Shown here: piece after piece, positions 7,711-61,598 of the stretch
Position numbering within the stretch: position 1 is the stretch's first letter
Layout of the letters: each line of letters begins with the position of its first letter
Assembly (NCBI GenBank): GCA_003222675.1
Contig: QHWT01000047.1
Coordinates: 124,069 to 188,068 of the forward strand
DNA from: Acidobacteriota bacterium
GTDB taxonomy: Bacteria; Acidobacteriota; Vicinamibacteria; Vicinamibacterales; 2-12-FULL-66-21
DNA length: 64,000 bases
Direction: 5' to 3'
Position numbers and translations under genes: made by a program
Notes under the pieces: model-generated
What the model was told of the DNA's origin: nothing
The model's database searches: none
What the model saw: the letters and a program-made list of their open reading frames with translations, nothing else

Positions 7711-9036
7711 CTAAGCTGGCACGGCCCGGTCGAGCGCCCTGCGCACGGCGTCGTAATCGTCGGGCAATTCGACGGGCTTGTTGCCGCACGCCCGGCCCAC
7801 GCCTCTCAACGTTCCTTCGTGGTACCCGACCTTGAAGTCGGTGAATTTCAAACCGTTCGCCGTCGAGAGCACCACGACGCGTTCGTCGCGGCCGATCTCG
7901 CCCCGCGCGACGAGCTTCATCAACGCGGCGAGCGCCACACCGGTGTGCGGGCAATTGAACATGCCCGTCCGATCCGCGCGTGCGGCCGCGTCTGCCAGCT
8001 CCGCCTCGCTCGCCTGCTCGACGATCCCGTCGCAACGCTGCAGCGCGCGGATCGCTTTCTTGATCGAGACGGGATTGCCGATCTGAATCGCCGACGCGAG
8101 CGTGGTCTTCGCGGCGATCGGCTGGTACCGCCACTGGTTGCGGTATGCGCGATACAGCGGATTTGCCGCTTCGGCCTGCGCGGCGACGAGCCGCGGCGCG
8201 CGCGACGTCAAGCCGAGCGCGCGCATCATCTCGAACCCCGCGGCAATGGCGCTGACGTTTCCCAGGTTACCGCTGGGCACGACGACAACTTCCGGGACCT
8301 CCCAGTCGAACTGCTGCGCGATCTCAATTGCGACGGTCTTCTGTCCCTCGAGCCGCAGGCTGTTCATCGAGTTCGCGAGGTACATCCCCTCTTCCGCCGC
8401 GAGCCGCTCGATCACTGCCATGCATCCATCGAAGTCGGTATCGAGAGCGAGCACCAGCGCGCCGTTCGCAAGCGGCTGCACGAGCTGCGCGGACGTGACC
8501 TTCTGCCGCGGAAGAATCACGATCGCCGGAATACCCGCCGCTGCCGCGTAGGCCGCGAGCGATGCGGAGGTATCGCCGGTTGATGCGCACCCGACGGCCC
8601 GGATATGCCGGCCGTCCGCGATCATCTGCTGCACGGCCGAGACGAGCACCGTCATCCCGAGATCTTTGAACGAGCCGGTGTGGGAGTTGCCGCAGAGCTT
8701 CACCCACAGATCGTCCAGACCAATCTCGGCGCCAAACCGCTGGGCATAAAAAAGGTTCGTCCCGCCTTCGTCCATCGACACGACGTTTTCATCGCGGACG
8801 GATGGGGCGACCCACTCCTTCTTGCCCCACACGCTCGACCCGTACGGCCACGCCGTGCGCTTGTAGCGATCGTCGAACAACCGCTTCCATTCATCAGCGC
8901 TGCGGTCGCGGAGCGCGCGGAGATCGTGGACGACCTCCAGCAGCTCGCTGCATTTGGGGCATCGATACAGGACCTCGTCCAGCGCATACGCGCCGTCGCA
9001 CCCCGCCGTGCACTGGAGGGTCGCGCGATACGTCAC
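7711..9036 (-). CDS. thrC: Threonine synthase, 441 aa
   Basis: PLP enzyme converting O-phosphohomoserine to threonine. Cysteines C9, C13, C26 and C29 resemble a zinc ribbon at the N-terminus; the PLP lysine is in HTGSFKDLG; the phosphate loop is [18 protein letters not shown]. It starts with GTG at 9036, overlapping the homoserine dehydrogenase stop (GTGA). Because it directly follows aspartate kinase and homoserine dehydrogenase, this copy is the best candidate for the true threonine synthase, leaving the paralog at 2324-3598 free for another role. Confidence 0.92.
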
Positions 9037-10373
9037 GCCGTGACCTCCGCTGGCGCCCTGCCGTCGAGCACGGGCATCGCCAGCATCGGGACGAGGTGAA
9101 AGTCGAACGCGCCGATCTCCGCGAGCGCCGCGTTGACGGCGGCCGACGGCGCGGCATCGAGGCTGACGATGAACGGCCGCTGGCTCGCAGGGAACCCGGG
9201 CTCCTGAAGGATGGCGTCGATGTTGATCTCGTACTTCGCGAACACGGACGCGAGCGCCGCGATGATCCCGGGGCGATCGACGACGGTGAAGCGCACGTAG
9301 TATGGCGTCGCCGCGTCGGACGAGACGCGAGCGGATCGTTCCGCGCGCGGCCGCACAGCGGGGCGCGCGCCCCGCGCGATCGTCAGCACGTCCGACAGCA
9401 CCGCCACGGCGGTTGGGTCTCCTCCCGCGCCGCGTCCGCCAAAGGTCGTTTCACCTCCGAAGCGTCCCTGGATCGAGACGAGGTTTTCGCTGCCATTGAC
9501 GGCGGCAAGCGGCGACTCGAGGGGCACGAGCGTGGGACCAACGCCCGCGCACAGTTCGAGATCACCGTTGCGCTCGGCCCACGCGATCTGCCGGATCGTG
9601 CAGCCGAGGCGTCGTGCGTAGCGGAAATCGACTCCGTCCACGGTTGCGATCGATCGCGTCGCAATCGCGTCGGGGGGCGCCTGGATCCCGAGCGCCACCA
9701 TCGCGAGAATGGCGAGCTTTGCCTGCGCGTCGAACCCATCGATGTCCTGCGACGGATTGGCCTCGGCGTAGCCGAGCGCCTGCGCTTCGCGCAGCGCGTC
9801 GGCGAACGCAGTGCCCTCGCGTTCCATCTTCGTCAGAATGTAGTTGCAGGTGCCGTTCAGGATGCCGGCGACGCGCGTCAGCCGGTCGCCGGCGAGGCCG
9901 CTTTCGATTGCGCGAATAACGGGTACGCCGCCGGCGACAGCCGCCTCGAATCGCAGGTGACAATCATTGGCCGCCGCGGCATCGAGCAGCGACGCGCCGT
10001 CCCGCGCGATCACCTGCTTGTTGGCCGTGACGACGGAGATGCCCCGCGCGAGCGCGCGGCGGATCCAGTCTTCGGCAGGCGAGCGCCCGCCAATCAATTC
10101 GATGAAGACATCGATCGGCCGGTCGAGGACCTCCTCGATTGAATCGGTCCACCGCACAGCGCCGTCGACCCAGTCGACACGCTTCCGATCGACGTCACGA
10201 TTGAGAATGGCGACGAGCTCCACCTCACGCGCCGCGTCCTGCAGCAGGCGCGCCGCCGATCGGCCGACGGTGCCAAACCCCGCAAGCGCTACGCGGCATC
10301 GGCCTTCCGCGCCGGTCGACACCCGACTCGTGACTTTCGGCTCGGGACCAGGGACCAGCGACTGGAGACTCAT
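9033..10373 (-). CDS. hom: Homoserine dehydrogenase, 446 aa
   Basis: NAD(P)-dependent reduction of aspartate semialdehyde to homoserine. The Rossmann motif [13 protein letters not shown] starts near residue 32; [11 protein letters not shown] and [15 protein letters not shown] are the conserved substrate-region motifs; an ACT domain near residues 345-430 ([20 protein letters not shown]) suggests end-product regulation, most often by threonine. The N-terminal 25 residues before the Rossmann fold are extra and a later start is possible. ATGA overlap with aspartate kinase upstream and GTGA overlap with thrC downstream. Confidence 0.94.
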
Positions 10374-11770
10374 TGGTTCACCGCCAAGGGAAAGTCGCCC
10401 GGCCGCGACGCGTTCGCCTCGAACAGGAACCCGTCGTGCAGCCTCGTCAGCGTCGATTCCGCGTGCGCCTCGTCAACGACCAAGGCCAGCGGCGAGCTCC
10501 CTGATGGCCGCGCGACCATGTGCACCGGCGTATCCCCCAGCACGGCCAGCGCATCGCGGATGAGCCGCGGCTCGGCGGACCAGCCGCGGCCGACGGCGCA
10601 CACCGCGGCGAGTCCGCGACGCAGCCGCACGTCCGCAAACGCCGCGACGCCGCTGCAGAAGCCGTCGAAGTCGGCCGAGTCGTCGACCGCGACCGACAGG
10701 CGATTGCCGCAGAGGTCCGCGAGCACGACCGGGGTGCCTCCCTGCGCCAGCACGTGAAACACCTTCGCGGCGAAAAACTCGCGGCCGCGCGTGTCGCGCG
10801 AGATCACCTCCACCAGCGTCACGCCGCTGCGACACGCAACCGCCGTCAACCGCGGGTCGACATCGAGATCAGTGTGCGGCCCGATAATCGTTCCGGTCGC
10901 GTCGGGACGGCGCGAGTTGAGCACGCGGACGGGAATGTTGCGGGCCGCCGCCGGCTGAATCGTCGCGGGATGCAGCACCTTCGCACCGAATATCGCAAGG
11001 TCGTGCGCCTCGGCGTACGACAGCCGCTCGACGAGCCGCGCGTGCGCAATGACGCGAGGGTCGGCGGTGAGAATGCCGTCGACATCAGTCCAGATCTGAA
11101 TTTCGTCGGCCGAAAGGCATGCGCCGAGGAGGGCCGCGGAATAATCGGATCCGCCGCGCCCGAGGGTTGTGGTCGATCCGTCCGGCGCCGATCCGATGAA
11201 TCCGCCGATAACCACGACCCGATCCGATGCGAGGAGCGGTCGAACGAGTTTGTCGACCGCGCGAGCGGTAGGGACGAGATCGGGCGTGGCGGCCTGGTAT
11301 CGGGCATCGGTGTGGACGATTTCGGGCGGGTCGAGCCAGCGCGACGCAATGCCCGCGTCCTCGAGCAGCGCCGCGACGAGGCGGCTGCTCCACAACTCGC
11401 CGGTCGCGACGAGACGATCCGCCGAGGCGGGCGTCGGCCTCGCGCGCCCGGCCGCGCGGATCGCGGCGACGGCGCCGCGCGCGGAACGTGAGAGCCCGTC
11501 GATGCCGGCGGAGAGCAGGCGACGCCGTTCGGCATGGCGGACCGCGCGCGCGACGTCATGGTGCCGCGCCGTCAGGCCGTCCAGCGCGCGGAGCGCCGCG
11601 TGTTCGTCGGCGCAGGCGACCTCGCCGATCTGCAGGAGCGCGTCGGTGACGCCGGCGAGCGCCGAGACCACCACCACGCGCGCGCCGCGCTGCGCGCCCA
11701 CGATGGCAGCGGCACGCCGGATGGCGTCCGCGTCGGCGACCGACGTTCCTCCGAATTTGAGCACCAGCAT
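10370..11770 (-). CDS. ask: Aspartate kinase (threonine/sulfur operon copy), 466 aa
   Basis: Phosphorylates aspartate, the entry to the aspartate family. The ATG at 11770 gives MLVLKFGGTSVADADAIRR, the standard kinase N-terminus; earlier in-frame codons belong to the attenuator region. Other motifs are GRGGSDYSAALLG, IWTDVDGILTADPR and FGAKVLHPATIQP, followed by C-terminal ACT domains. A second aspartate kinase lies in the lysine operon (28695-30068), so the two are probably under different end-product control. It is the first structural gene after the leader at 11874-11969 and the terminator at 11808-11846. Confidence 0.94.
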   Translation of the reverse strand: MLVLKFGGTSVADADAIRRAAAIVGAQRGARVVVVSALAGVTDALLQIGEVACADEHAALRALDGLTARHHDVARAVRHAERRRLLSAGIDGLSRSARGAVAAIRAAGRARPTPASADRLVATGELWSSRLVAALLEDAGIASRWLDPPEIVHTDARYQAATPDLVPTARAVDKLVRPLLASDRVVVIGGFIGSAPDGSTTTLGRGGSDYSAALLGACLSADEIQIWTDVDGILTADPRVIAHARLVERLSYAEAHDLAIFGAKVLHPATIQPAAARNIPVRVLNSRRPDATGTIIGPHTDLDVDPRLTAVACRSGVTLVEVISRDTRGREFFAAKVFHVLAQGGTPVVLADLCGNRLSVAVDDSADFDGFCSGVAAFADVRLRRGLAAVCAVGRGWSAEPRLIRDALAVLGDTPVHMVARPSGSSPLALVVDEAHAESTLTRLHDGFLFEANASRPGDFPLAVNQ

Positions 11771-11807: not shown

Positions 11808-11846
11808 AAAAACAAAAAACCCGCCGGCTTGTGAAGTCCGGCGGGT
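11808..11846 (-). terminator. Attenuator terminator before aspartate kinase
   Basis: On the minus strand CCCGCCGG and CCGGCGGG form an 8-base stem (plus-strand arms 11820-11827 and 11838-11845) followed by T6-G-T6. It lies 38 bases before the kinase start, after a leader ORF. GTCCGGTGG at 11896-11904 can pair with CCGCCGGAC at 11836-11844, giving an alternative antiterminator. Confidence 0.85.
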
Positions 11847-11873
11847 GTTTACGGTGCACGCAGTCTGAAACGA

Positions 11874-11969
11874 TCAGGGTGCATATACGCAAACGCCACC
11901 GGACACGCGAATTCGCATGGTGCGATTTCGCATGCTGGTCTTGGTGGCGGTGCAGCTACAGCAGCCCAT
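11874..11969 (-). CDS. Leader peptide of the threonine/sulfur operon, 31 aa
   Basis: ORF ATG 11969 to TGA 11874, starting MGCCSCTATKTSMRNRTMRI, then a tail with Val, Gly, Cys and Tyr. It carries four Thr (all ACC), three Met, one Lys, one Ile and four Cys, i.e. aspartate-family and sulfur amino acids. The antiterminator strand GTCCGGTGG lies in codons 22-25, so a ribosome stalled on the upstream Cys/Thr/Met codons would leave it free, while one reading to the stop would cover it and allow the terminator. The ATG lies 8 bases after a -10 box with no Shine-Dalgarno, so the transcript may be leaderless. Regulation by translation is inferred. Confidence 0.65.
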   Translation of the reverse strand: MGCCSCTATKTSMRNRTMRIRVSGGVCVYAP

Positions 11970-11977
11970 TAACCGCG

Positions 11978-12007
11978 AGTATAGGCACCTCGGCGAGCCG
12001 GCGTCAA
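11978..12007 (-). promoter_or_regulatory. Promoter of the threonine/sulfur operon
   Basis: Minus strand TTGACG (12002-12007), 18-base spacer, TATACT (11978-11983). It is a near-consensus sigma70 promoter directed at the leader ORF. The lysine-operon leader has the same TTGACG-N18 arrangement. Confidence 0.75.
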
Positions 12008-12098: not shown

Positions 12099-12167
12099 AT
12101 GACGACCTGCGTCGGGGTGTCGCTCGCCATTCGACTTATTGGAGTTACGGCCCTCAGCGCCGGATGA
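12099..12167 (+). CDS. ilv operon leader peptide, 22 aa
   Basis: ATG 12099 to TGA 12165-12167, reading MTTCVGVSLAIRLIGVTALS plus Ala-Gly. Eight of 22 residues are branched-chain (three Val, three Leu, two Ile) and three are Thr, the isoleucine precursor. An in-frame ATG at 12090 would add three residues. ACGGCCC at 12147-12153, inside the peptide's distal codons, is complementary to the 5' arm of the downstream terminator (GGGCCGT, 12200-12206). This is the classical ilv/leu attenuation layout: stalling on the Val/Leu/Ile codons frees the antiterminator. Confidence 0.75.
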   Translation: MTTCVGVSLAIRLIGVTALSAG

Positions 12168-12199
12168 CGACGCCCCTTATCGAGACGACAGATTTTACG

Positions 12200-12232
12200 G
12201 GGCCGTCATCCACAAGGGTGACGGCCCTTTTT
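12200..12232 (+). terminator. ilv attenuator terminator
   Basis: GGGCCGTCA (12200-12208) pairs with TGACGGCCC (12219-12227), a 9-base perfect stem with a 10-base loop, followed by TTTTT. It sits between the leader peptide and ilvD. The 5' arm can instead pair with ACGGCCC at 12147-12153. Confidence 0.88.
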
Positions 12233-12258
12233 GTTGTTGGGACGGCGCGGATTTGGAG

Positions 12259-12282: not shown

Positions 12283-14016
12283 GTGGTTGTGGCGGACCAG
12301 AAAGATAAATGGCAGAGCGGCGCGATTACGGACGGTCCCAGCCGGGCTCCCGCGCGCGCGATGCTCCGCGCGGTCGGATTCGATCGACAGGCGCTCGCCC
12401 GACCGATCGTGGGCGTTGCCAACACCTGGACCGAGATCGGACCCTGCAATTACCACTTGCGCGACCTCGCGATCCCGCTGAAGGAGGCCATCCGCGCGGC
12501 CGGCGGCACGCCGATGGAGTTCAACACCGTCTCGATCTCCGACGGCATCACGATGGGCTCGCCCGGCATGCGCGCCTCGCTCGTCAGCCGCGAAGTGATC
12601 ACCGATTCGATCGAGCTCGTGGCGCGCGGCAACCTCTTCGATGCGCTGGTCGTGCTCGTCGGCTGCGACAAGACCATCCCGGCGGCCGCAATGGCGCTCG
12701 CGCGCCTCGACATCCCGGGCGTCATCCTTTACGGCGGGTCGATCGCGCCGGGCCGTGTTCAGGGACGCGACGTCACCATTCAGGATGTGTTCGAAGCGGT
12801 CGGGGCGCATGCCGCAGGGCGGTTGTCGGATGCCGGCCTCTGTGAGATCGAGGATCGCGCGTGCCCCGGCGCCGGCGCGTGCGGCGGACAGTTCACCGCA
12901 AACACGATGGCGACCGCGTGCGAGTTCCTGGGTCTCGCCGCGATGGGGAGCGGCGATGTGCCCGCAACCGATCCTGACAAGCGCCAGGTCGCCGTTCGCA
13001 CCGGTGCGCTTGTGATGGAGGTCCTCCACAACGATCGTCGTCCTTCGCGGATCGTCACGCGAGAGGCGCTCGAGAACGCGATCGCGTCAGTGGTCGCGAC
13101 GGGCGGGTCGACGAACGCGGTGCTCCACCTGCTGGCGATCGCGAACGAGGCCGGCGTGGCGCTCGAGATTGACGACTTCGATCGCATCAGCGCGCGCGTG
13201 CCGCTCCTGGCGGATCTCAAGCCGGGTGGACGATTCGTCGCGGCCGATCTTCACGCGGCCGGCGGCACGAGGCTGCTGGCCAGACGCCTCATCGAGGCGG
13301 GCGTGCTGCACGCCGAGGCCCTCACGGTCAGCGGCCGCACGGTGGCAGAGGAAGCGGCGCGCGCTTCTGAAACTCGCGGTCAGGAAGTGATCCGTCCGGT
13401 GAGCGCACCGCTCAAGACCACCGGCGGCCTTGTAATCCTGCGCGGCAATCTCGCGCCCGACGGGTGCGTCGTCAAGGTCGCGGGTCACGACCACGTGACG
13501 CATCAGGGTCCGGCGCGTGTGTTCGACTCCGAGGAAGACGCGTTCGCCGCGGTGCAGACGGGGCGCATCTCTCAGGGTGATGTCGTCGTGATCCGCTACG
13601 AGGGGCCGCGCGGCGGCCCTGGCATGCGCGAAATGCTCGCTGTGACGGCGGCCATCGTGGGCGCCGGGCTCGGCGACTCCGTCGCACTCGTCACCGACGG
13701 CCGCTTCTCGGGCGCGACGCGGGGATTGATGGCGGGGCACGTGGCTCCGGAAGCGGCGAGCGGCGGACCGATCGCCGCGGTGCGCGATGGCGATCTGATT
13801 ACGCTCGATCTGAACGCGCGAGGAATTCGGATTGAGATCAGTGATGCGGAACTTGCGTCGCGGCTGGCGCGGTGGACCCCGCCGCGACCCCGATATGCAG
13901 ACGGCGTCATGGGCAAGTACGCGCGGCTCGTGGGATCGGCCGCCGCGGGCGCCGTGACCACCGCGCATGCGGTGCAGGAACACACCGAGCAACGCTTCAC
14001 GGTAGGGACAAAGTAG
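12283..14016 (+). CDS. ilvD: Dihydroxy-acid dehydratase, 577 aa
   Basis: Iron-sulfur dehydratase of valine/isoleucine synthesis, converting 2,3-dihydroxy acids to 2-oxo acids. Cluster cysteines are visible in GPCNYH, GCDKTIPAAAMA and ACPGAGACGGQFTANTM; LVTDGRFSGATRG near residue 475 is the family signature. Length is typical (about 560-580). The start is GTG at 12283 or GTG at 12289; the second lies a better 6 bases from GGCGGGAG. First structural gene after the attenuator; ilvB follows 47 bases later. Confidence 0.94.
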   Translation: MVVADQKDKWQSGAITDGPSRAPARAMLRAVGFDRQALARPIVGVANTWTEIGPCNYHLRDLAIPLKEAIRAAGGTPMEFNTVSISDGITMGSPGMRASLVSREVITDSIELVARGNLFDALVVLVGCDKTIPAAAMALARLDIPGVILYGGSIAPGRVQGRDVTIQDVFEAVGAHAAGRLSDAGLCEIEDRACPGAGACGGQFTANTMATACEFLGLAAMGSGDVPATDPDKRQVAVRTGALVMEVLHNDRRPSRIVTREALENAIASVVATGGSTNAVLHLLAIANEAGVALEIDDFDRISARVPLLADLKPGGRFVAADLHAAGGTRLLARRLIEAGVLHAEALTVSGRTVAEEAARASETRGQEVIRPVSAPLKTTGGLVILRGNLAPDGCVVKVAGHDHVTHQGPARVFDSEEDAFAAVQTGRISQGDVVVIRYEGPRGGPGMREMLAVTAAIVGAGLGDSVALVTDGRFSGATRGLMAGHVAPEAASGGPIAAVRDGDLITLDLNARGIRIEISDAELASRLARWTPPRPRYADGVMGKYARLVGSAAAGAVTTAHAVQEHTEQRFTVGTK

Positions 14017-20467: not shown

Positions 20468-22126
20468 AGATTCCGCGAGACCAGTACGCGGGCCTCTATG
20501 GCCCAACGGCCGGCGATCGCGTGCGTCTCGCCGACACCGGTCTCGTGTTGCAGATCGAGCGCGACTTCGCGCGATATGGGGAGGAGGTGCCGTTCGGCGG
20601 CGGCAAGGTCGTGCGGGATGGGCAGGGTCAGTCGCAGGTGTCGCGCGGGGAAGGCGCGCCGGATCTCGTCATCACGAACGTGATCGTCCTCGATCACTGG
20701 GGCGTGGTGAAGGGGGACGTCGGCGTCCGCGACGGCCGCATCTCGGCGATCGGCAAGGCGGGAAACCCCGGCATCCAGGACGGCGTGACGCCGGGCCTTG
20801 AACTCGGCGCATCGACGGAAATCATCGCCGGCGAGCATCGTATTCTGACGGCTGGCGGGATCGACTCGCACATCCATTTCATCAGTCCGCAGCAGGCGTG
20901 GGAAGCGCTCTACAGCGGCGTCACGACGATGATTGGCGGCGGCACCGGACCGGCGGACGGCACGCGCGCCACGACGTGCACGCCGGGCGAATGGCACATC
21001 CACCGGATGATCGAAGCCACCGACAGCCTGCCGCTCAACTTTGGTTTTCTGGGCAAGGGCAACGCGTCGCGCGAGGAGCCGCTGATCGAGCAGGTCCGGG
21101 CCGGCGCGATCGGCCTCAAGCTGCACGAAGATTGGGGCACAACGCCGGCAACAATCGATGCGGCGCTCACCGTCGCGGACGCGTACGACGTGCAGGTCGC
21201 GATCCACACCGACACGTTGAACGAGTCGGGATTCGTCGAGGATACGCTCGCGGCCATACGCGGCCGCACCATCCACACCTATCACAGCGAAGGCGAGGGA
21301 GGCGGCCATGCGCCCGACATCCCCAACGATGCCGTTCACGGTGAATACGCTGGACGAGCACCTGGACATGCTGCTCGTGTGCCATCACCTCAACGCGCAG
21401 GTGCCGGAAGACGTGGCGTTCGCGGAATCGCGCATCCGCCCGGAAACGATGGCGGCCGAAGACGTGCTGCACGATCTCGGCGCGATCAGTATGATGTCCT
21501 CCGACTCGCAGGCCATGGGACGCGTCGGCGAGGTGATCATGCGGACGTGGCAGACAGCGCACGTCATGAAGGCTGCGCGCGGTCCTGTTGCGGGAGACCC
21601 GCGGGAGCACGACAACCGGCGAATTCGGCGGTATCTCGCGAAATACACGATCAATCCCGCGCGCGCGCATGGCATCAGCGAGTATGTTGGATCGATCGAG
21701 GTCGGCAAGTACGCGGACCTGGTGTTGTGGTCCCCCGCGTTTTTTGGCGTCAAGCCGGATCTCGTGATCAAGGGCGGCTTCGTCGCCGCCGCTTTGATGG
21801 GCGATCCCAATGCCTCGATCCCGACACCAGAGCCGGTGCGGTACCGTCCGATGTTCGGCGCCCTGGGTCGCGCGACAAGCGCCGTGTCGTGGACGTTCGT
21901 GTCTCAGGCTTCAATCGACGAACATCGGTTGCCGTCACGCGTCGATCGTGCGCTGCTGCCGGTGCATGGCACGCGCGCGCTCGGGAAGCGCGACATGATT
22001 CTCAACGACGCGTTGCCGCGAATCGATATCGACCCTGAACGTTATACCGTCGTCGTCGATGGCGAGGCAGTCGTGCCCCAACCCGCCGCGACGCTTCCTA
22101 TGGCCCAGCGATATTTCCTGTTCTGA
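20464..22126 (+). pseudogene. ureC: Urease alpha subunit, disrupted by an internal deletion/frameshift
   Basis: Catalytic urease subunit in two frames. From 20464 the frame reads [20 protein letters not shown] through GIDSHIHF (nickel His pair), the carbamylated-lysine region [18 protein letters not shown] and [15 protein letters not shown]. At about 21318-21323 homology jumps to another frame reading [24 protein letters not shown] (active-site flap Cys-His) and [12 protein letters not shown] (nickel Asp), ending PMAQRYFLF at 22126. Intact UreC has about 15 residues (around GEPNVLPSSTNP) between these points. A loss of 44 bases (or another length giving remainder 2 on division by 3) fits. Every catalytic residue is encoded but not in one frame. 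All other ure genes look intact, so an assembly error or a recent mutation is likely. Confidence 0.9.
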
Positions 22127-25110: not shown

Positions 25111-26112
25111 TCAGGCAGCGGACAAACAGTGGCTGGCGAGTCTGGCGTACGTGCCAATCGCCGCGTGGACCTCATCGACGTGCACGTGCTCCCGCTGAGT
25201 GTGCGCGACGAGAATCGATCCCGGCCCGAACAAGAGCGGCGTGCCCCAGCGATTGAGCAGGGGAACGTCGGTCGTGAACGGAAAGACCGCCGCTGGGATT
25301 CCGGGGACCGTGTGAAAGCGCACCATCGGGACTCGCAGGATTTCCGTGACGGTGACGTTCGGCTCGACCTCCCGCGCCCTCGCGAGCACCTCGTCAGCCG
25401 ATCCGACGATCCGAAACATCAGCTCCGCAGACGCTGACGGCGAGATCACGTTGGGTGCGATCCCTCCCTCGATCAATCCGATGGAGTAGAACGTGTTTCC
25501 GAGCTCAGGATCGGACGGCCACTGCATCCCGCGCAGACGCACCAGGACGTCGACGAGCTTGTCAATCGCCGAATCGCCATGTTCCGGCACGGCGGAGTGC
25601 GCGGCGCGTCCTTTCGCGCTGAGTTGCACCCTCAACATGCCGCGCGTGGCAATCGCGAGACGGCTGTCGGTGGGTTCGCCGTTAATCAGAAAGCTCGATC
25701 GCGCCGCTGCGGCATTCGCGACGTTGGCGCCGTCGCTTCCGCGTTCCTCGCCGACGACGAACAGCAACGCAACCCGGCGTTCGCCGGACGCGCGCATCCG
25801 TTCAACAGCGGCCAGCTGCGCGGCGAGGATTCCTTTCGCATCGCACGACCCGCGACCGAACAGGCATCCATCGCGTACGTCGCTCGGGAAGAACGGCGGC
25901 ACGCAGTCGAAGTGGGTCGACAGCACGACCCGAGGGTCATCGAGTCGCGCGTAGACGTTGAATCGTCGGTCGGCAACGGGCTGCCGTTCGACGGTGTAGC
26001 CGAGTCGCGACAGCTGCGAGGCCAGCCACTCCCCTGCCGCCTGCTCGCGGCCGGTCGTTGAATCGATGTCGATCAGTGCGCGCGCGAAGGTGATCGGGTC
26101 TATCGAATCCAT
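25111..26112 (-). CDS. dapE: M20-family deacylase, succinyl-diaminopimelate desuccinylase candidate, 333 aa
   Basis: Zinc aminoacylase-fold enzyme. Metal and catalytic residues appear in LSTHFDCVPP (His), FGRGSCDAKG (Asp), VGEERGSDGA (Glu pair) and a late His in VAHTQREHV. ATG 26112 starts MDSIDPITFARALIDIDSTT, overlapping dapD by 13 bases. Its place after dapA and dapD identifies it as the desuccinylase of the succinylase lysine route; by sequence alone ArgE-like deacetylases are also possible. It is slightly short for DapE (about 375 aa), partly through a compact lid domain. Confidence 0.85.
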   Translation of the reverse strand: MDSIDPITFARALIDIDSTTGREQAAGEWLASQLSRLGYTVERQPVADRRFNVYARLDDPRVVLSTHFDCVPPFFPSDVRDGCLFGRGSCDAKGILAAQLAAVERMRASGERRVALLFVVGEERGSDGANVANAAAARSSFLINGEPTDSRLAIATRGMLRVQLSAKGRAAHSAVPEHGDSAIDKLVDVLVRLRGMQWPSDPELGNTFYSIGLIEGGIAPNVISPSASAELMFRIVGSADEVLARAREVEPNVTVTEILRVPMVRFHTVPGIPAAVFPFTTDVPLLNRWGTPLLFGPGSILVAHTQREHVHVDEVHAAIGTYARLASHCLSAA

Positions 26113-26951
26113 TGTTCGAGGGCCGTACGGGCGCTGGTGCGCTCGTCGCGATACTTGACTATCACGGGCGTCGCGAGCGCGAGGCCCCAATCGCGTCCTG
26201 GACCGGCCGAGATCGGACGTGTCCCGGGAACCACGACGGCCCCTTCGGGCACGATGAGCGGCTGGCCCGCGGAGGGTTCGATGACGCGGTTGTTCGGAAT
26301 GTCGAAGATCGGGGTCGAGCCCGTGAGCACTGCACCGGCCGCGAGCACCGCCCTGCGTTTCACGACCGTTCCCTCGTATACACCGCAGTTGCCGCCCACG
26401 AGCACATCGTCCTCGACGATTACCGGCAACGCGCCGACCGGCTCGAGGACACCGCCGATCTGCGCGGCGGCGCTGAGGTGCACGCGCTTGCCGATCTGCG
26501 CGCACGATCCCACGAGCGCGTGCGAGTCGACGAGCGTCTCCTCGTCCACATAGGCGCCGATGTTCACGTACATCGGCGGCATGCAGATGACGCCCCGCGC
26601 GAGGAACGCGCCGTCACGAATGCTCGATCCGCCGGGGACGATGCGGATGCCAGCGGAGACGTCTACCTTCTTCAGCGGCAGCGTGTCCTTGTCGATGAAC
26701 GGCCAGCGGCCGTGATCCGCGGATGCGTCCGCGATCGCGCCGAAGCGGAACCCGAGCAGGATCCCGCGCTTCACCCACGCGTTCACTTTCCAGCCGGAAG
26801 GAGACGCCGAGTCGGGTTCAGCGGCGCGGACGGTTCCTTCCGACAGCGCGGCACGGAGGGCCGTAAAGGCGGCGCGCGCCTCGTCTCGCGGCGCATCGCC
26901 GCCTGCGGCGGCAAGCCGGTCAACCGTGTCGGCCAGCACCGCCGGCGTCAT
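26100..26951 (-). CDS. dapD: Tetrahydrodipicolinate N-succinyltransferase, 283 aa
   Basis: Left-handed parallel beta-helix acyltransferase using succinyl-CoA. Hexapeptide-repeat region from about residue 110 (ARGVICMPPMYVNIGAYVDE, then VGSCAQIGKRVHLSAAAQIG) matches DapD. The N-terminal helical domain is present. Overlaps dapA by 4 bases and dapE by 13. Indicates the succinylase branch of diaminopimelate synthesis. Confidence 0.94.
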   Translation of the reverse strand: MTPAVLADTVDRLAAAGGDAPRDEARAAFTALRAALSEGTVRAAEPDSASPSGWKVNAWVKRGILLGFRFGAIADASADHGRWPFIDKDTLPLKKVDVSAGIRIVPGGSSIRDGAFLARGVICMPPMYVNIGAYVDEETLVDSHALVGSCAQIGKRVHLSAAAQIGGVLEPVGALPVIVEDDVLVGGNCGVYEGTVVKRRAVLAAGAVLTGSTPIFDIPNNRVIEPSAGQPLIVPEGAVVVPGTRPISAGPGRDWGLALATPVIVKYRDERTSARTALEQWIR

Positions 26952-27844
26952 GCGGGGATCGCGGCGGCGAGGCCAAGCGATCTCAGCACCGTCGCAATCC
27001 GCTCGCGCGATGCCGGCCGCGGCGGCACCATTGGCAGGCGATAGATCTCGTCGAGCAGCCCGAGCATGGCCATCGCGCTTTTGACGGGAATGGGATTCGA
27101 CTCAATGAAGTTCACCTGCAGCAGCGGCATCAGTCGCTGATGCAGCTGGCGCGCGGACGCGAAGTCGCCGTGACTGCCAAGCTCGGCGAGCCTGCTCATC
27201 TCCCCCGGAATCTCGTTCGATGCGACCGAGATGATCCCTCGTCCGCCGATCGCCATCAGCGGCAGCGTCAACGCATCGTCGCCGGACAGGACCGTGAAGG
27301 TGTCCGGAACCGACGCGCAGATCTCACACATCTGCATCATGTTTCCCGATGCTTCCTTCACTCCGGCAATGTTCGGGATGGATGCAAGGCGGACGAGCGT
27401 GGCGGGGTCGATGTTGCAACCGGTGCGCCCTGGCACGTTGTAGAGAATGATTGGAAGCTCGATCGCCTCGGCAATCGCGCGATAGTGCGCGACGAGGCCG
27501 TCGGGGGTCGGCTTGTTGTAATAGGGCGTCACCGACAGGATGCCGTCCGCGCCCGCGCGACGCATTCGCTTCGCCGCCTGAATGACCTCGTGCGTGTTGT
27601 ACCCGCCGGCGCCCGCAAGCACCGGCACCCGTCCCTTGGCCTGCTCGACAACCAGCTCGACCACCCGCACACGCTCTTCTTCCGTGAGTGTCGGGCTCTC
27701 ACCCGTCGTGCCGCACGGGACGAGGAAGTGGATGCCGGCATCGATCTGGCGCTTCGCCAGGCGCGACACGCCCGCTTCATCGAGCGACCCGTCGCGCCTG
27801 AACGGCGTGACGAGTGCGGTCCCGCATCCGGTAAATGGCCGCAT
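26948..27844 (-). CDS. dapA: 4-Hydroxy-tetrahydrodipicolinate synthase, 298 aa
   Basis: TIM-barrel aldolase condensing pyruvate with aspartate semialdehyde. GTTGESPTLTEEE, the catalytic Tyr in VTPYYNKPT, and the Schiff-base lysine in GVKEASGN are seen. ATG 27844 is preferred over 27856 because GGAGG lies 6 bases before it. A 175-base gap with microrepeats separates it from dapB. Confidence 0.95.
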   Translation of the reverse strand: MRPFTGCGTALVTPFRRDGSLDEAGVSRLAKRQIDAGIHFLVPCGTTGESPTLTEEERVRVVELVVEQAKGRVPVLAGAGGYNTHEVIQAAKRMRRAGADGILSVTPYYNKPTPDGLVAHYRAIAEAIELPIILYNVPGRTGCNIDPATLVRLASIPNIAGVKEASGNMMQMCEICASVPDTFTVLSGDDALTLPLMAIGGRGIISVASNEIPGEMSRLAELGSHGDFASARQLHQRLMPLLQVNFIESNPIPVKSAMAMLGLLDEIYRLPMVPPRPASRERIATVLRSLGLAAAIPA

Positions 27845-27860
27845 TACTACCTCCATGTCG

Positions 27861-28694: not shown

Positions 28695-30068
28695 TCAGCG
28701 GATTGCGACGGTCTCGAACAGCTCGTCATGCAGGTGTTTCATCGCGTCGGGCGCCGCGCTGTCTGCCAGCACCATCGTGAGGTTTCTGCGGGACGCCGCC
28801 TGCGAAACCATGCGCAAAGGAAACGTCGCCAGTGCGCCAATCACGCGCGACGCCGTGTCGGAGCGGCGCCGGAGATTCTCGCCGACGACGCAGAGAATCG
28901 CCATCTCTTCCTCGACGCTCACGTCTGCGAACTCGCGGAGCGCGTTGACGATTTCCGGCACGCGGCGGCGATCATCGACAGTCACCGATACGCTCACTTC
29001 GGACGTGGTGACCACATCGACCGGCGTGCGGTAGTGCTCGAAGGTTTCGAACACGCGTCGCAGAAAGCCGTAGGCCATCAGCATTCGCGTCGACGTGACG
29101 TCGACGACCGTAACACCACGCTTGCACGCGATAGCCGTCACCGGGCGGCCGTCGTCAGCCGGCGAACTGGTGATGAGCGTTCCTTCGGCCTCAGGTCGTC
29201 GGCTATTGAGAATACGCACCGGGATGTTGTGTGCGACCGCCGGCAGGATCGTGCTCGGGTGGAGGACCTTCGCGCCGAAATACGCGAGCTCGGAGGCTTC
29301 GCCGAACGAGAGCTGCCGCACGACCCGCGGTTCCTCGACGATGCGTGGATCCGCCGTCAGCATGCCGTCGACGTCGGTCCAGATCTGGATCTCGGAGGCA
29401 TCGATCGCCGTACCAATCAATGCGGCGGAGTAGTCCGACCCGCCACGGCCGAGCGTTGTCGTGGCCCCGTCCGGCGCGCGGCCGACGAATCCGCCGATGA
29501 CGGGGATGCGGCCCGACTGGAGCAGCGGCAGCACGAACTCCGAGGCCGCCTCCTTTGTTGCGTCAGCGAGCGGCGCGGCCTGGCCGTAGGTCGCGTCCGT
29601 CATCAGCACCGATCGCGCGTCGACGAATGCTGCCTCGAACCCGTGTGCGCGGAGCGCCGCCGCAACGAGACGGCTGTTGAGCAACTCGCCGCTTGCCGCT
29701 ACACGATCGAGCGCGCGCGAATCCGCGTGTCGGAGAACGTCGATGGCCTGCAACACGGCGCCGAGCTCCGTCAGCTCGCGTTCGATGTCGCGCGCGACGG
29801 GAGCTGCCGATGCGCCAACCAGCCGAAGCGCCGCGTCGCCATGCCTCCGCGACAACTCGTCGAGTCCATCGCGCACGACGTCGGTTCGCCCGCTGCTCGC
29901 CGCGTCCGCCATCGCGAGCAGCCGATCGGTGACCTTTGACATCGCGGACACAACCACGACCGGCGCCGCGTCCGATTCGACGGCGCGGCGCACGATCGAG
30001 ATCGTCTGCGTGATCGCGGCGGCATCGGCCACCGAGGTCCCGCCGAACTTCATCACCACCTTGCGCAT
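28695..30068 (-). CDS. lysC: Aspartate kinase (lysine operon copy), 457 aa
   Basis: Second aspartate kinase of the window. MRKVVMKFGGTSVADAAAIT, GRGGSDYSAALIG, IWTDVDGMLTADPR and FGAKVLHPSTILP define the kinase domain; two ACT domains follow (about 305-450, with RGVTVVDVTSTRMLMAYG and AILCVVGENLRRR). Co-transcription with asd and dap genes suggests lysine control. It overlaps the asd stop by one base. Compare the paralog at 10370-11770, linked to threonine and sulfur genes. Confidence 0.95.
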   Translation of the reverse strand: MRKVVMKFGGTSVADAAAITQTISIVRRAVESDAAPVVVVSAMSKVTDRLLAMADAASSGRTDVVRDGLDELSRRHGDAALRLVGASAAPVARDIERELTELGAVLQAIDVLRHADSRALDRVAASGELLNSRLVAAALRAHGFEAAFVDARSVLMTDATYGQAAPLADATKEAASEFVLPLLQSGRIPVIGGFVGRAPDGATTTLGRGGSDYSAALIGTAIDASEIQIWTDVDGMLTADPRIVEEPRVVRQLSFGEASELAYFGAKVLHPSTILPAVAHNIPVRILNSRRPEAEGTLITSSPADDGRPVTAIACKRGVTVVDVTSTRMLMAYGFLRRVFETFEHYRTPVDVVTTSEVSVSVTVDDRRRVPEIVNALREFADVSVEEEMAILCVVGENLRRRSDTASRVIGALATFPLRMVSQAASRRNLTMVLADSAAPDAMKHLHDELFETVAIR

Positions 30069-31132
30069 CAGTCTTCCCCGATCAGCCCGGTCGCGAGCAT
30101 CAGCTCCGCGTTCAGCACCGCTGCACCGGCGGCGCCGCGGATTGTGTTATGTCCGAGCGCGACGAGCTTCACGCCCAGTATCGGACACCGGCGGACGCGG
30201 CCGACCGTGATCGTCATCCCGCCATCGCGATCGACGTCGCGTCGCGGCTGTGGACGATCGGGCGCCGCGCTGACGACAATCGGATTCGCCGGCGCGGTCG
30301 GCAGATTGAGCGCCTGTGGTTGTCCCTTGAACGACGCCAGCGCACCGCTCACCTCGTCGAGCGACGGACGTGCCTTCAGCGCGATCGAAATGGCCTCCGT
30401 GTGTCCGTCGATCACCGGCACGCGGTTGGTGTGCGCGCTCACGGTGACAGCGTGCGGCGTGACACCCGAGTCGCCTATGGTGCCCAGAATCTTGCACGTC
30501 TCGCTCTCCATCTTCTCTTCTTCATTCGCGATGAAAGGCACGACGTTGCCGAGAATGTCCATCGAGGAGACACCAGGGTAGCCGGCGCCGGAGACCGCCT
30601 GCATCGTGGTGACGAGCACGGACTCGAGGCCGAAGCGCCGGAGCGGGGCCAGCACCATGGCGAGAACAACAGTTGAACAGTTCGGGTTGGTGACGATTGC
30701 GCCCCGCCAGCCGCGCGCGCGGCGCTGCCGATCCAGCAGGGCGAGATGATCCGCGTTGATCTCGGGAATCAGCAGTGGCACGTCCGCGTCCATGCGATAG
30801 CACCGCGCGTTGCTGACGACGAGATGGCCGGCGGCGGCAAACGCCGGTTCGATGTCTTGTGCGGCGGTCGCGTCGAGCGCGGAAAAGACGAGCCGCGGAC
30901 CGCGTCCCGGCACGCAGCCGTCGACGCGGGATGCGCGCACTTCTTCCGGCGGCGCGTCGCTCAGCCGCCACGGCGCTGCGTCGGCGTATGCGCGGCCTTC
31001 GGACCGTTCGCTCGCAGCCAGCCACGCCGGCCGAAACCACGGATGCCGCGCGAGCTGCCGCACGAACTGCTGACCCACCATCCCGGTGGCGCCAAGTACC
31101 CCGACGTCGATTCGCTTTCGTACTCCCTGCAT
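30068..31132 (-). CDS. asd: Aspartate-semialdehyde dehydrogenase, 354 aa
   Basis: NADP-dependent reduction of aspartyl phosphate. GVLGATGMVGQQFVRQLARH is the Rossmann start; catalytic Cys lies in VTNPNCSTVVLA; AVSGAGYPGVSSMDILGNVVP and the late HTNRVPVIDGHTE match the archaeal/fungal-like ASADH type. ATG 31132 is chosen because GGAGG lies 8 bases before it. First structural gene after the lysine-operon attenuator; supplies both lysine and homoserine branches. Confidence 0.94.
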   Translation of the reverse strand: MQGVRKRIDVGVLGATGMVGQQFVRQLARHPWFRPAWLAASERSEGRAYADAAPWRLSDAPPEEVRASRVDGCVPGRGPRLVFSALDATAAQDIEPAFAAAGHLVVSNARCYRMDADVPLLIPEINADHLALLDRQRRARGWRGAIVTNPNCSTVVLAMVLAPLRRFGLESVLVTTMQAVSGAGYPGVSSMDILGNVVPFIANEEEKMESETCKILGTIGDSGVTPHAVTVSAHTNRVPVIDGHTEAISIALKARPSLDEVSGALASFKGQPQALNLPTAPANPIVVSAAPDRPQPRRDVDRDGGMTITVGRVRRCPILGVKLVALGHNTIRGAAGAAVLNAELMLATGLIGED

Positions 31133-31154: not shown

Positions 31155-31189
31155 CAAAAAAAACCGCCGGCACCTCAAGGGGCCGGCGG
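31155..31189 (-). terminator. Attenuator terminator before asd
   Basis: Minus strand CCGCCGGC and GCCGGCGG (plus-strand arms 31182-31189 and 31164-31171) form an 8-base stem followed by eight T. GGCCGGTGG at 31243-31251 can pair with CCGCCGGCC at 31181-31189 as antiterminator. It closely parallels the structure at 11808-11904. Confidence 0.88.
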
Positions 31190-31225
31190 TTGGTGGAATT
31201 TCGGCTGCGAGCTGATCGTTTCAGA

Positions 31226-31303
31226 TCACGAGCGACACCCCACCACCGGCCTGCGAATTCGCAAGGCCCGCTTTCGAGTCGTGTGGCAGGTCGGGCTTGT
31301 CAT
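31226..31303 (-). CDS. Leader peptide of the asd-lysC-dap operon, 25 aa
   Basis: ATG 31303 to TGA 31226, starting MTSPTCHTTRKRALRIRRPV and ending VGCRS. It contains four Thr (ACA, ACC, ACG, ACT), one Lys and one Ile. It resembles the peptide at 11874-11969: both have Cys then Thr-rich residues, then an LRIR/MRIR motif encoded by TGCGAATTCGC, then the antiterminator strand. A CTGA-N5-TCAG hairpin (31212-31224) follows the stop, as in the other leader. Expression of the peptide is inferred. Confidence 0.6.
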   Translation of the reverse strand: MTSPTCHTTRKRALRIRRPVVGCRS

Positions 31304-31315
31304 GGTCTGTGGCAA

Positions 31316-31345
31316 ATCTTAACGCGCCGCGACCGTACGCGTCAA
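31316..31345 (-). promoter_or_regulatory. Promoter of the asd-lysC-dap operon
   Basis: Minus strand TTGACG (31340-31345), 18-base spacer, TAAGAT (31316-31321), 12 bases before the leader ATG. Identical -35 and spacing to the threonine/sulfur operon promoter at 11978-12007. Confidence 0.65.
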
Positions 31346-59886: not shown

Positions 59887-60234
59887 TCAGGAGGACGTGA
59901 CCACGATCGATCCGCCCGCGTGCTGTCGGCATGCAAAGTACAGGCAGTCGCGGAAGCGACCACTCGATGTATCGGCCACCATCGCGGAAAGCTGGAAGCT
60001 GGCAGGCGGACCGCACACGTCGTTGACGACCATCGGCGCGGAGAACGTGCTCGCGCCATCGGTCGAACGAATAATCCAGGCGCGCCGGCGCTCCAGAGCC
60101 GGTCGACTCTCAGTAAAGATAGTCGAGTACTGCCCGCACGCCGCCTGCCCGCCGAGCTGCTGGTGCCGCAAGCCGTTGCCAAGGCTCGGCGTCGTGTTCG
60201 TGCACCGCCATCGGCTGGATCTGACGCAGTGCAT
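59887..60234 (-). pseudogene. Fragment of a sialidase-like (BNR repeat) protein
   Basis: The minus-strand frame reads RRRAWIIRSTDGASTFSAPM, then VVNDVCGPPASFQLSAMVAD and SGRFRDCLYFACRQHAGGSI before a stop. The S-T-D-G-x-x-T-F Asp-box-like motif and following strand resemble exo-alpha-sialidase-type beta-propellers, but only about 90 residues are present and both ends stop without the rest of the fold. No other ORF in 59743-60353 is convincing. Confidence 0.45.
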
Positions 60235-60353
60235 TTACGTCGGCGCCGGTCCTCAGGACCGCGCGTTCGCGCGGCGGCTCGGGTTCCAGTACTCCGAGGC
60301 GAATGATTTCTTTGCCCTGTAAGATCAGATTAGCAGCCAGGAACATTGGCGTC

Positions 60354-61598
60354 ATGAAGAGAAAAGACCGGAGAAAGATCGGGTTCCCTGCAGCAGCACA
60401 GAGATTCGTCCCGCGGCAGGTCAATGCTCCCTATCGAATCTGGGGAGAGGGCCTGGAAGAGACGGCCGTTCAACAGCTGAAGAACGCGTGCAAATTGCCC
60501 GTGGCTGTCTCGGGCGCGCTCATGCCGGACGCGCACGTCGGGTACGGCCTGCCGATCGGCGGCGTGTTGGCCACCAACGATGCCGTCATTCCGTATGCGG
60601 TCGGTGTCGACATCGCATGCCGGATGAAGCTGACGGTGCTGGACCTCCCCGTCAGCGCCCTGACAGACGATCAAGCGCGTTTGACGCGAGCGCTCGAGCG
60701 CGAGACACGTTTCGGGCTAGGTGCTTCGTTCAAATCGCGACGTCACCACGATGTCATGGATGCCGACTGGCAGGTGACGAGCGTGACCGCGGGGCTGAAG
60801 GATCGCGCCTGGGCGCAGCTCGGCACGAGCGGGAGCGGCAACCACTTCGTCGAGTTCGGACGCCTCACCGTCCTTGACGACACGGTCGGACTCTGCGCGG
60901 GCGAGTACGTCGCGCTGCTCAGTCACTCGGGCAGCCGCGGCGCCGGCGCGCAAGTGGCCCAGCACTACAGCCGCCGCGCGCGCGATTTGCATCCTGAACT
61001 GCCGCAGGAGCTCTCCCATCTCGCGTGGCTGGATCTGGCGAGTGACGCGGGCCAGGAATACTGGGCGGCCATGGAATTGATGGGAAAATATGCGGCGGCG
61101 AATCATGCGCTCATTCACGCGCATGTCGCGCGGGCGCTCGGCGTAGACGTGTTGCTCGACATCGAGAATCATCACAACTTCGCGTGGCGAGAGCGGCATC
61201 GGCTTCCTGATGGATCGGAAGCAGAGGTCATCGTACATCGCAAGGGTGCGACCCCGGCCGGCGTCGGTGTGCGCGGCATCATCCCAGGCTCGATGGGAAC
61301 GCCAGGCTACGTGGTCCGCGGCAAGGCCGTTGCCGAGTCGTTGAATTCCGCGTCGCACGGCGCGGGCCGGCGCATGAGCCGGACCAAAGCGAAACAGACG
61401 TTCACGTGGGACGCCACTCAGCGCTTCCTGCGCGAGCGCGGCGTCACCTTGCTGTCGGCCGGACTCGATGAAGTGCCGATGGCGTATAAAGACATCGACC
61501 AGGTCATGGCCGCTCAAAGCGATCTCGTCGAACCGCTGGCGCGTTTCGAACCGCGGCTCGTGAAGATGGCGCCGAGTGGAGAACCGCCGGAGGACTGA
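60354..61598 (+). CDS. rtcB: RtcB-family RNA ligase, 414 aa
   Basis: GTP-dependent 3'-phosphate RNA ligase. Metal-binding motifs MPDAHVGYGLPIGG and GVDIACRM, the SGNHFVEFG motif and the guanylylated His region SASHGAGRRMSR are conserved. Start ATG 60354 (MKRKDRRKIGFPAAAQRFVP) is preferred over an upstream in-frame start. Shorter than E. coli-type or archaeal RtcB (about 408-480), consistent with a short bacterial subtype. No archease or rtcA is adjacent. RNA repair is the likely role. Confidence 0.92.
   Translation: MKRKDRRKIGFPAAAQRFVPRQVNAPYRIWGEGLEETAVQQLKNACKLPVAVSGALMPDAHVGYGLPIGGVLATNDAVIPYAVGVDIACRMKLTVLDLPVSALTDDQARLTRALERETRFGLGASFKSRRHHDVMDADWQVTSVTAGLKDRAWAQLGTSGSGNHFVEFGRLTVLDDTVGLCAGEYVALLSHSGSRGAGAQVAQHYSRRARDLHPELPQELSHLAWLDLASDAGQEYWAAMELMGKYAAANHALIHAHVARALGVDVLLDIENHHNFAWRERHRLPDGSEAEVIVHRKGATPAGVGVRGIIPGSMGTPGYVVRGKAVAESLNSASHGAGRRMSRTKAKQTFTWDATQRFLRERGVTLLSAGLDEVPMAYKDIDQVMAAQSDLVEPLARFEPRLVKMAPSGEPPED

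Follow-up and report, generated by a model that had tools for sequence, protein, structure and literature searches.

The window, a 64,000-nucleotide stretch of DNA from a soil acidobacterium, contains two leaders, leader A upstream of the lysine operon asd-lysC-dap and leader B upstream of ask-hom-thrC, that are very probably ribosome-mediated transcription attenuators of one paralogous family (probability roughly 0.88). The strongest evidence is that the lysine codons are conserved, that they stand at a fixed distance from the antiterminator and that the sensor codon suits the pathway, rather than the lone base pair that covaries between the two leaders. Anatomy, conservation, pairing and codon-pathway match were read from the sequence, and from these we infer the transcription start, translation, stalling, termination and the role of the arginine codon CGA.

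The features of both leaders are listed in Table 1. A first-pass annotation of this DNA had described TTGACG-N18 promoters in the two leaders, and rechecking the coordinates located both. The peptide motif (M/L)RIR that it reported was also present, with (T/A)TGCGAATTCGC coding (L/M)RIR, as were the antiterminator/terminator-arm pairs, GGCCGGTGG:CCGCCGGCC in leader A and GTCCGGTGG:CCGCCGGAC in leader B. Its spacing of 60 and 62 bases is correct as a start-to-start distance, but the nucleotides actually lying between the paired strands number 51 and 53. The transcription start predicted for leader A lies about 5 nt 5' of the leader ATG. The peptide had been called threonine rich, and 4 of the 25 residues of leader A are indeed threonine; it also has the Lys codon conserved in homologues, and leader A is a probable Lys(+Thr) sensor. 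A single Lys codon is retained in the window's copy, and the second Lys position is Leu (TTG). Both lysine and threonine may perhaps be sensed by this leader, which would suit an asd-lysC operon.

Table 1. Positions of the leaders, their parts and the genes behind them, numbered within the window.
Feature	Position	Strand	Basis
Leader A, whole, upstream of asd-lysC-dap	31345-31155	minus	
Leader A promoter: TTGACG 31345-31340, N18, TAAGAT 31321-31316	31316-31345	minus	sequence; like layout in other members
Leader A peptide ORF MTSPTCHTTRKRALRIRRPVVGCRS and stop, nearly leaderless	31226-31303	minus	sequence; homologous ORFs
Leader A CGA AAG (Arg-Lys), proposed sensor codon preceded by slow Arg codon	31271-31276	minus	CGAAAGCGG invariant in 9/9
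Leader A region 2, antiterminator 5' strand GGCCGGTGG, within leader ORF	31243-31251	minus	2:3 helix pairing
Leader A region 3 CCGCCGGCC, common to antiterminator and terminator	31181-31189	minus	2:3 and 3:4 helix pairing
Leader A region 4 GCCGGCGG and U8 tract, intrinsic terminator	31156-31171	minus	3:4 helix pairing
asd, first gene of lysine operon behind leader A	30068-31132	minus	NCBIfam TIGR00978, 423 bits
lysC aspartate kinase	28695-30068	minus	NCBIfam
dapA, 3' of lysC in leader A operon	26948-27856	minus	NCBIfam
dapD in leader A operon	26100-26951	minus	NCBIfam
DapE/ArgE-family deacylase in leader A operon	25111-26505	minus	NCBIfam
Leader B, whole, upstream of ask-hom-thrC	12007-11808	minus	
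Leader B promoter: TTGACG 12007-12002, N18, TATACT 11983-11978	11978-12007	minus	sequence
Leader B peptide ORF MGCCSCTATKTSMRNRTMRIRVSGGVCVYAP and stop, Thr/Ile/Met/Asn version of leader A scaffold	11874-11969	minus	sequence; sister-genome homologue
Leader B region 2 GTCCGGTGG	11896-11904	minus	sequence
Leader B region 3 CCGCCGGAC	11836-11844	minus	sequence
Leader B region 4 GCCGGCGGG and U6 tract	11814-11828	minus	sequence; leader matched by covariance model R1
ask-hom-thrC operon behind leader B	7711-11770	minus	NCBIfam
Third attenuator, before ilvD	12099-12236	plus	sequence; sister-genome counterpart
ilvD-leader peptide MTTCVGVSLAIRLIGVTALSAG, Val/Leu/Ile codons	12099-12167	plus	
ilvD-leader region 2	12162-12176	plus	
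ilvD-leader region 3	12199-12211	plus	
ilvD-leader terminator, then U tract	12199-12232	plus	
ilvD	12283-14016	plus	NCBIfam

In the mechanism that we propose, RNA polymerase would start 0 to 6 nt 5' of the leader ATG, so that the leader ORF would be translated almost leaderless. When the charged sensor tRNA is plentiful, the ribosome would reach the stop codon and cover region 2, and the 3:4 terminator would form. When this tRNA is short, the ribosome would stall at the sensor codon and leave region 2, which starts about 10 nt further on, free to pair with region 3, and transcription would continue into the operon. In leader A, lysine would be the sensor, with Thr codons ahead of the Lys codon, probably because threonine synthesis depends on asd as well. 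The Lys codons would have turned into Asn, Thr, Met or Ile codons in leader B. The CGA before the Lys codon probably slows decoding, which would sharpen the stall.

The predicted pairings fit this mechanism. The 5' arm of the terminator has its best partner inside the ORF; terminator and antiterminator share region 3 and are mutually exclusive. Counted from the first nucleotide of the last Lys codon, the antiterminator strand starts at a median of 10 nt, and the end of region 2 falls close to the stop codon, no more than 19 nt away. Duplex energies were on average better than those of synonymous-codon shuffles that kept the peptide (mean z of -1.18, n = 43 leaders), with weaker antiterminator scores in the Thr leaders (z of -1.35, +0.21 and -0.38). 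In the family alignment, 86.7% of the cells of the 2:3 helix were paired versus 20 to 49% when the helix was slid, and its covariation score of 0.183 was reached by 4 of 500 shuffles; the 3:4 terminator helix was 96.3% paired, with a score of 0.29 that none of 500 shuffles reached. Both helices stay paired through sequence changes. Double-sided covariation within the family is modest, with 2 pairs, a count that 70 of 500 shuffles also reach. The U:A to G:C compensation claimed between leaders A and B is real but amounts to just one base pair; beyond it, a C:G to U:A change occurs at column pair 62:135 of alignment A3. A possible protector 1:2 helix was seen only in single-sequence folds of several members. 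The strong hairpins and U tracts found downstream of upstream genes, and some low-scoring model matches that span the terminator alone, might be taken to mean that each terminator simply forms the 3' end of the gene before it and that the ORFs are chance. We consider this extremely improbable, given that promoter, ORF, sensor codons and terminator are conserved jointly across families and that a second partner for the terminator 5' arm lies within the ORF.

The two leaders had been regarded as independently placed copies, which does not hold: in the core, leaders A and B can be aligned codon for codon and are therefore not independent placements. The core codons CGA AAG CGG GCC TTG CGA ATT CGC of leader A correspond to CGA AAT CGC ACC ATG CGA ATT CGC of leader B, giving the peptide cores RKRALRIR and RNRTMRIR (RKRAKR and RNCITR in the sister genome, where the homologue of the leader B peptide is MGRCPQNLSTTTMRNCITRIRTSGGGSA). 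The Lys codons of the leader A scaffold are replaced by Asn and Thr codons in leader B. The sister genome's lysine leader has AAG CGA where its threonine leader has ACG CGA, a one-base change from Lys to Thr. The divergence of sensor codons between the copies is informative.

Other likenesses between the leaders did not extend to the family. The CTGA-N5-TCAG hairpin noted previously is found in both window leaders, but neither the sister genome nor any other family member has it, and it was rejected as a family feature. The element of leader A is the exact reverse complement of that of leader B: the 13-base sequence TCTGAAACGATCA lies at 31225-31213 (minus strand) in leader A and at 11864-11876 (plus strand) at leader B. 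Since its orientation is opposite in the two leaders, their RNAs are complementary there (loop AACGA versus UCGUU). This match is not conserved in the sister genome, and the complementarity is possibly due to chance. The TGCGAATTCGC palindrome was likewise rejected as an operator, as it reads GCGAATTGCG in the sister genome and GCGACCC elsewhere.

A scan of both strands of the window for a promoter, short ORF and terminator found leaders A and B and one other place only, which speaks for more than chance; the scan used a strict -10 rule, which the leader of ilvD escaped. This third attenuator has the antiterminator GGATGACGACGCCCC:GGGGCCGTCATCC, and the leader peptide in the sister genome is MTKVVGVSVVIRLLGITALRAG; ilvD sits on the strand opposite to leader B. 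Separately, positions 20625-20895 (minus strand) of the window match the Rfam family 5_ureB_sRNA (RF02514) at 55.7 bits, versus a gathering score of 40.

A DNA search with leader A returned the sister genome's leader as well as a fragment from one further genome. When DNA upstream of asd or lysC was collected from the window's bacterial family, nine leaders with the same promoter-ORF-terminator plan and predicted 5' UTRs of 2 to 6 nt were found. Their aligned peptides are RKRALRIRRPVV (window), RKRAKRIAWPVV (sister), RKRVKRPGRPVV, RKRVKRPCRSVV, RKRGKRTRRSVV, RKRGKRPGRPVV (twice), RKRIKRASRPRW and RKRAKWGQPAG. The homologous ORFs of all nine genomes encode RKR, usually plus a second Lys, and the flanks of the invariant CGAAAGCGG are variable. 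Of 161 genomes in the order, 106 had a LysC orthologue, and the DNA upstream was scanned for a short ORF followed by a terminator. Leaders precede lysC or asd in families f1, f2, f4, f6, f7, f10, f11 and f13 (for example, TRKCTGRKRAHCVGGVVLER, AARKRATRKRLAGSQVRA, ARKRSDRKRTKSAS and ITITTTKKRSIKRIGRVGG), while about half of the lysC loci examined, including those of many f2 genomes, had no leader under the rules used. In family f4, the leader before asd-lysC-dap of one genome (G014; L240, L283 and L343) codes TRTIITITVTTRKR, mostly Thr and Ile with one Lys, which suggests combined sensing. Scanning found no leader of this type at lysC loci of other Acidobacteriota classes, Ignavibacteria or Gemmatimonadetes. 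Second aspartate kinases of several families had a leader in 1 of 20 upstream stretches, that of G118. In G118, a leader (L278/L286, G118:C34) reads MFGTACCTVISIGTMTRTGMAMRSCITGAGAEQ, with Cys, Thr, Met and Ile codons, and the genes behind it are ask-(unidentified)-thrB-thrC-cysG and a nitrite/sulfite reductase-type gene; it is possibly a multi-amino-acid sensor. Across the phylum, matches to the pattern CGAAAG-N9-CGAAAGCG outside the order look like chance; a backwards control pattern also matched often, and the pattern thus gives no evidence of spread beyond the order.

L-box riboswitches and T-boxes occur upstream of lysine genes in other phyla, and the leaders described here sit upstream of lysine genes as well, as they would if a metabolite-binding riboswitch or T-box sensed lysine or tRNA directly and the short ORF were incidental. 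The leaders were not matched by the lysine riboswitch and T-box covariance models, however, and did not reach the gathering score of Thr_leader, the other Rfam leader families or any further Rfam family; at E values up to 5, Rfam gave weak matches only, all under the gathering score. What is conserved is a reading frame and sensor codons that shift with the pathway, and the antiterminator strand lies inside the ORF. Direct sensing by an RNA is accordingly very improbable.

Codon usage in the leaders was examined with a peptide-blind rule, based on promoter, start and terminator only, which retained 40 of 95 loci; the stretch searched at the nine loci from the window's family was centred on the known motif. 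At these 40 loci, Lys makes up 9.1% of leader residues versus 1.36% in LysC, and AAR Lys codons number 97 in frame versus 4 in frame +1 (frame +2 has 51, mostly from the CGAAAG overlap). Only one of the 40 peptides is without Lys, and it belongs to a methionine operon. The Arg codon directly before Lys is CGA in 46 of 51 cases, versus 21 of the 147 other Arg codons of the same leaders (Fisher, 5e-23) and 11.6% of Arg codons in lysC genes (2e-35), where the sequences are related and the counts not independent. This CGA-Lys motif recurs in several families.

These arginine codons raise the question of whether an Arg/Lys-rich nascent peptide stalls the ribosome, or whether the leader gauges arginine or general translation speed rather than lysine. 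Arg accounts for 18.7% of leader residues, conservation is strong for an Arg-Lys dipeptide in which the rare codon CGA encodes Arg, and CGA alone slows the his leader in an assay (PMC4046918). Yet Arg also accounts for 11.4% of LysC in these GC-rich genomes, in paralogues Arg stays while Lys gives way to the Thr, Met or Ile that suits the pathway, and the motif, about 11 residues from the start, is short for tunnel arrest. We judge such stalling or gauging to be very unlikely and favor attenuation by stalling at the sensor codon. In the his leader assay, CGA was poorly translated and de-attenuation was raised (PMC4046918), which makes it plausible that CGA acts as an amplifier. An Arg tRNA reading CGA via inosine-adenine wobble in the P site would slow decoding of the next codon, and small drops in charged Lys-tRNA would then produce a stall. 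We offer it as a tentative proposal, somewhat less probable than not, that the CGA preceding the Lys sensor codon has been selected as an amplifier and that point changes in the next codon have re-aimed one scaffold to Lys, Thr, Met or Ile. The CGA-AAG motif looks new.

Covariance model R1, for which the nine lysine leaders were the sole input, was run against 149 genomes; matches below about E=1e-3 were left out of the count as plain terminators when they spanned model positions 113-147 alone. In the window genome, leader B comes second among the matches (E=3.7e-8), and members occur in many other families of the order, in agreement with the earlier suggestion of a selected cis-regulatory attenuator family. 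Matches include TTITTTKRIMRIR, with Thr/Ile sensor codons, upstream of thrB-thrC; two tandem Met-rich leaders upstream of hom, then metY and metX; MSMPMMAMRMTSIGG upstream of asd-hom-metY-metX; RKRK leaders in family f15 upstream of lysX, a gene of the alpha-aminoadipate lysine route; and TTTTITTGICMTR in G003. A genome located through its aspartate kinase (G038) has AMRMMAMRMTG before ask-hom-metY-metX. In G033 and G015, the Met-rich peptide was read first and the downstream met genes were looked up only afterwards. The tandem Met-rich leader peptides, at L333 (G033:C7, about 60000-60750), have two terminators and precede hom-metY-metX. The lysine-leader model also led to His-rich leader peptides, HHVHHHHGH and HGHHHHVHH, before hisG (L353 and L355). 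Sensor residues are enriched in their own operon class (K, 9.1% versus 1.5%; M, 21% versus 2.3%; H, 29% versus 1.6%; T, 19% versus 9%; Fisher tests by class) in a set compiled by hand, in which some labels, such as that of G003, are partly peptide based.

The leaders resemble enterobacterial attenuators (thrL, hisL, trpL; Rfam Thr_leader etc.) in having a short ORF with cognate codons, alternative pairings and a terminator before the first gene, and Thr and Ile codons occur together in the threonine operon leader here as in thrL. Unlike them, this family has no Rfam match, a predicted 5' UTR of only 0 to 6 nt, one paralogous scaffold for Lys, Thr and Met operons and a CGA before the Lys sensor codon. 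Thermus thermophilus reportedly has a lysine leader-peptide attenuator before its lysine biosynthesis genes (Tsubouchi et al. 2005). That system also senses lysine through a leader peptide but differs in phylum, and most leaders here precede asd-lysC and genes of the diaminopimelate route; its nearest parallel is found in the f15 leaders before lysX. Given this precedent, the lysine version looks new in the phylum and for the asd-lysC-dap operon, and is not the first lysine attenuator. The lysine riboswitch, for which PMC1262725 uses the name L-box, also controls lysine genes, often by premature termination, but the sensor here is an ORF and not an aptamer. Actinobacterial attenuators (trp, ilvB and leuS) are likewise leader peptides with regulatory codons in GC-rich bacteria, and the same survey found no conserved RNA structure before threonine, lysine or methionine operons in actinobacteria (PMC1262725). 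The mechanism is classical; what looks new is the family with its lysine and methionine versions, and also the CGA-AAG motif.

Attenuators of Acidobacteriota have hardly been annotated: almost none of the attenuators predicted in one study had an associated function (PMC2965389). On the sequence evidence, the lysine, threonine and methionine genes of this bacterium and of those related to it appear to be turned on in response to ribosome stalls on matching leader codons, and leader peptides would do the work done by riboswitches in better-known phyla. One large and previously undescribed family spans lysine (two pathways), threonine and methionine operons across an order, with similar leaders before histidine and branched-chain genes, and its lysine and methionine attenuators are rarely seen versions. 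The family would show how a duplicated attenuator is re-aimed to another amino acid through changes in single codons, and it may serve as a natural test of codon-pair effects on ribosome stalling.
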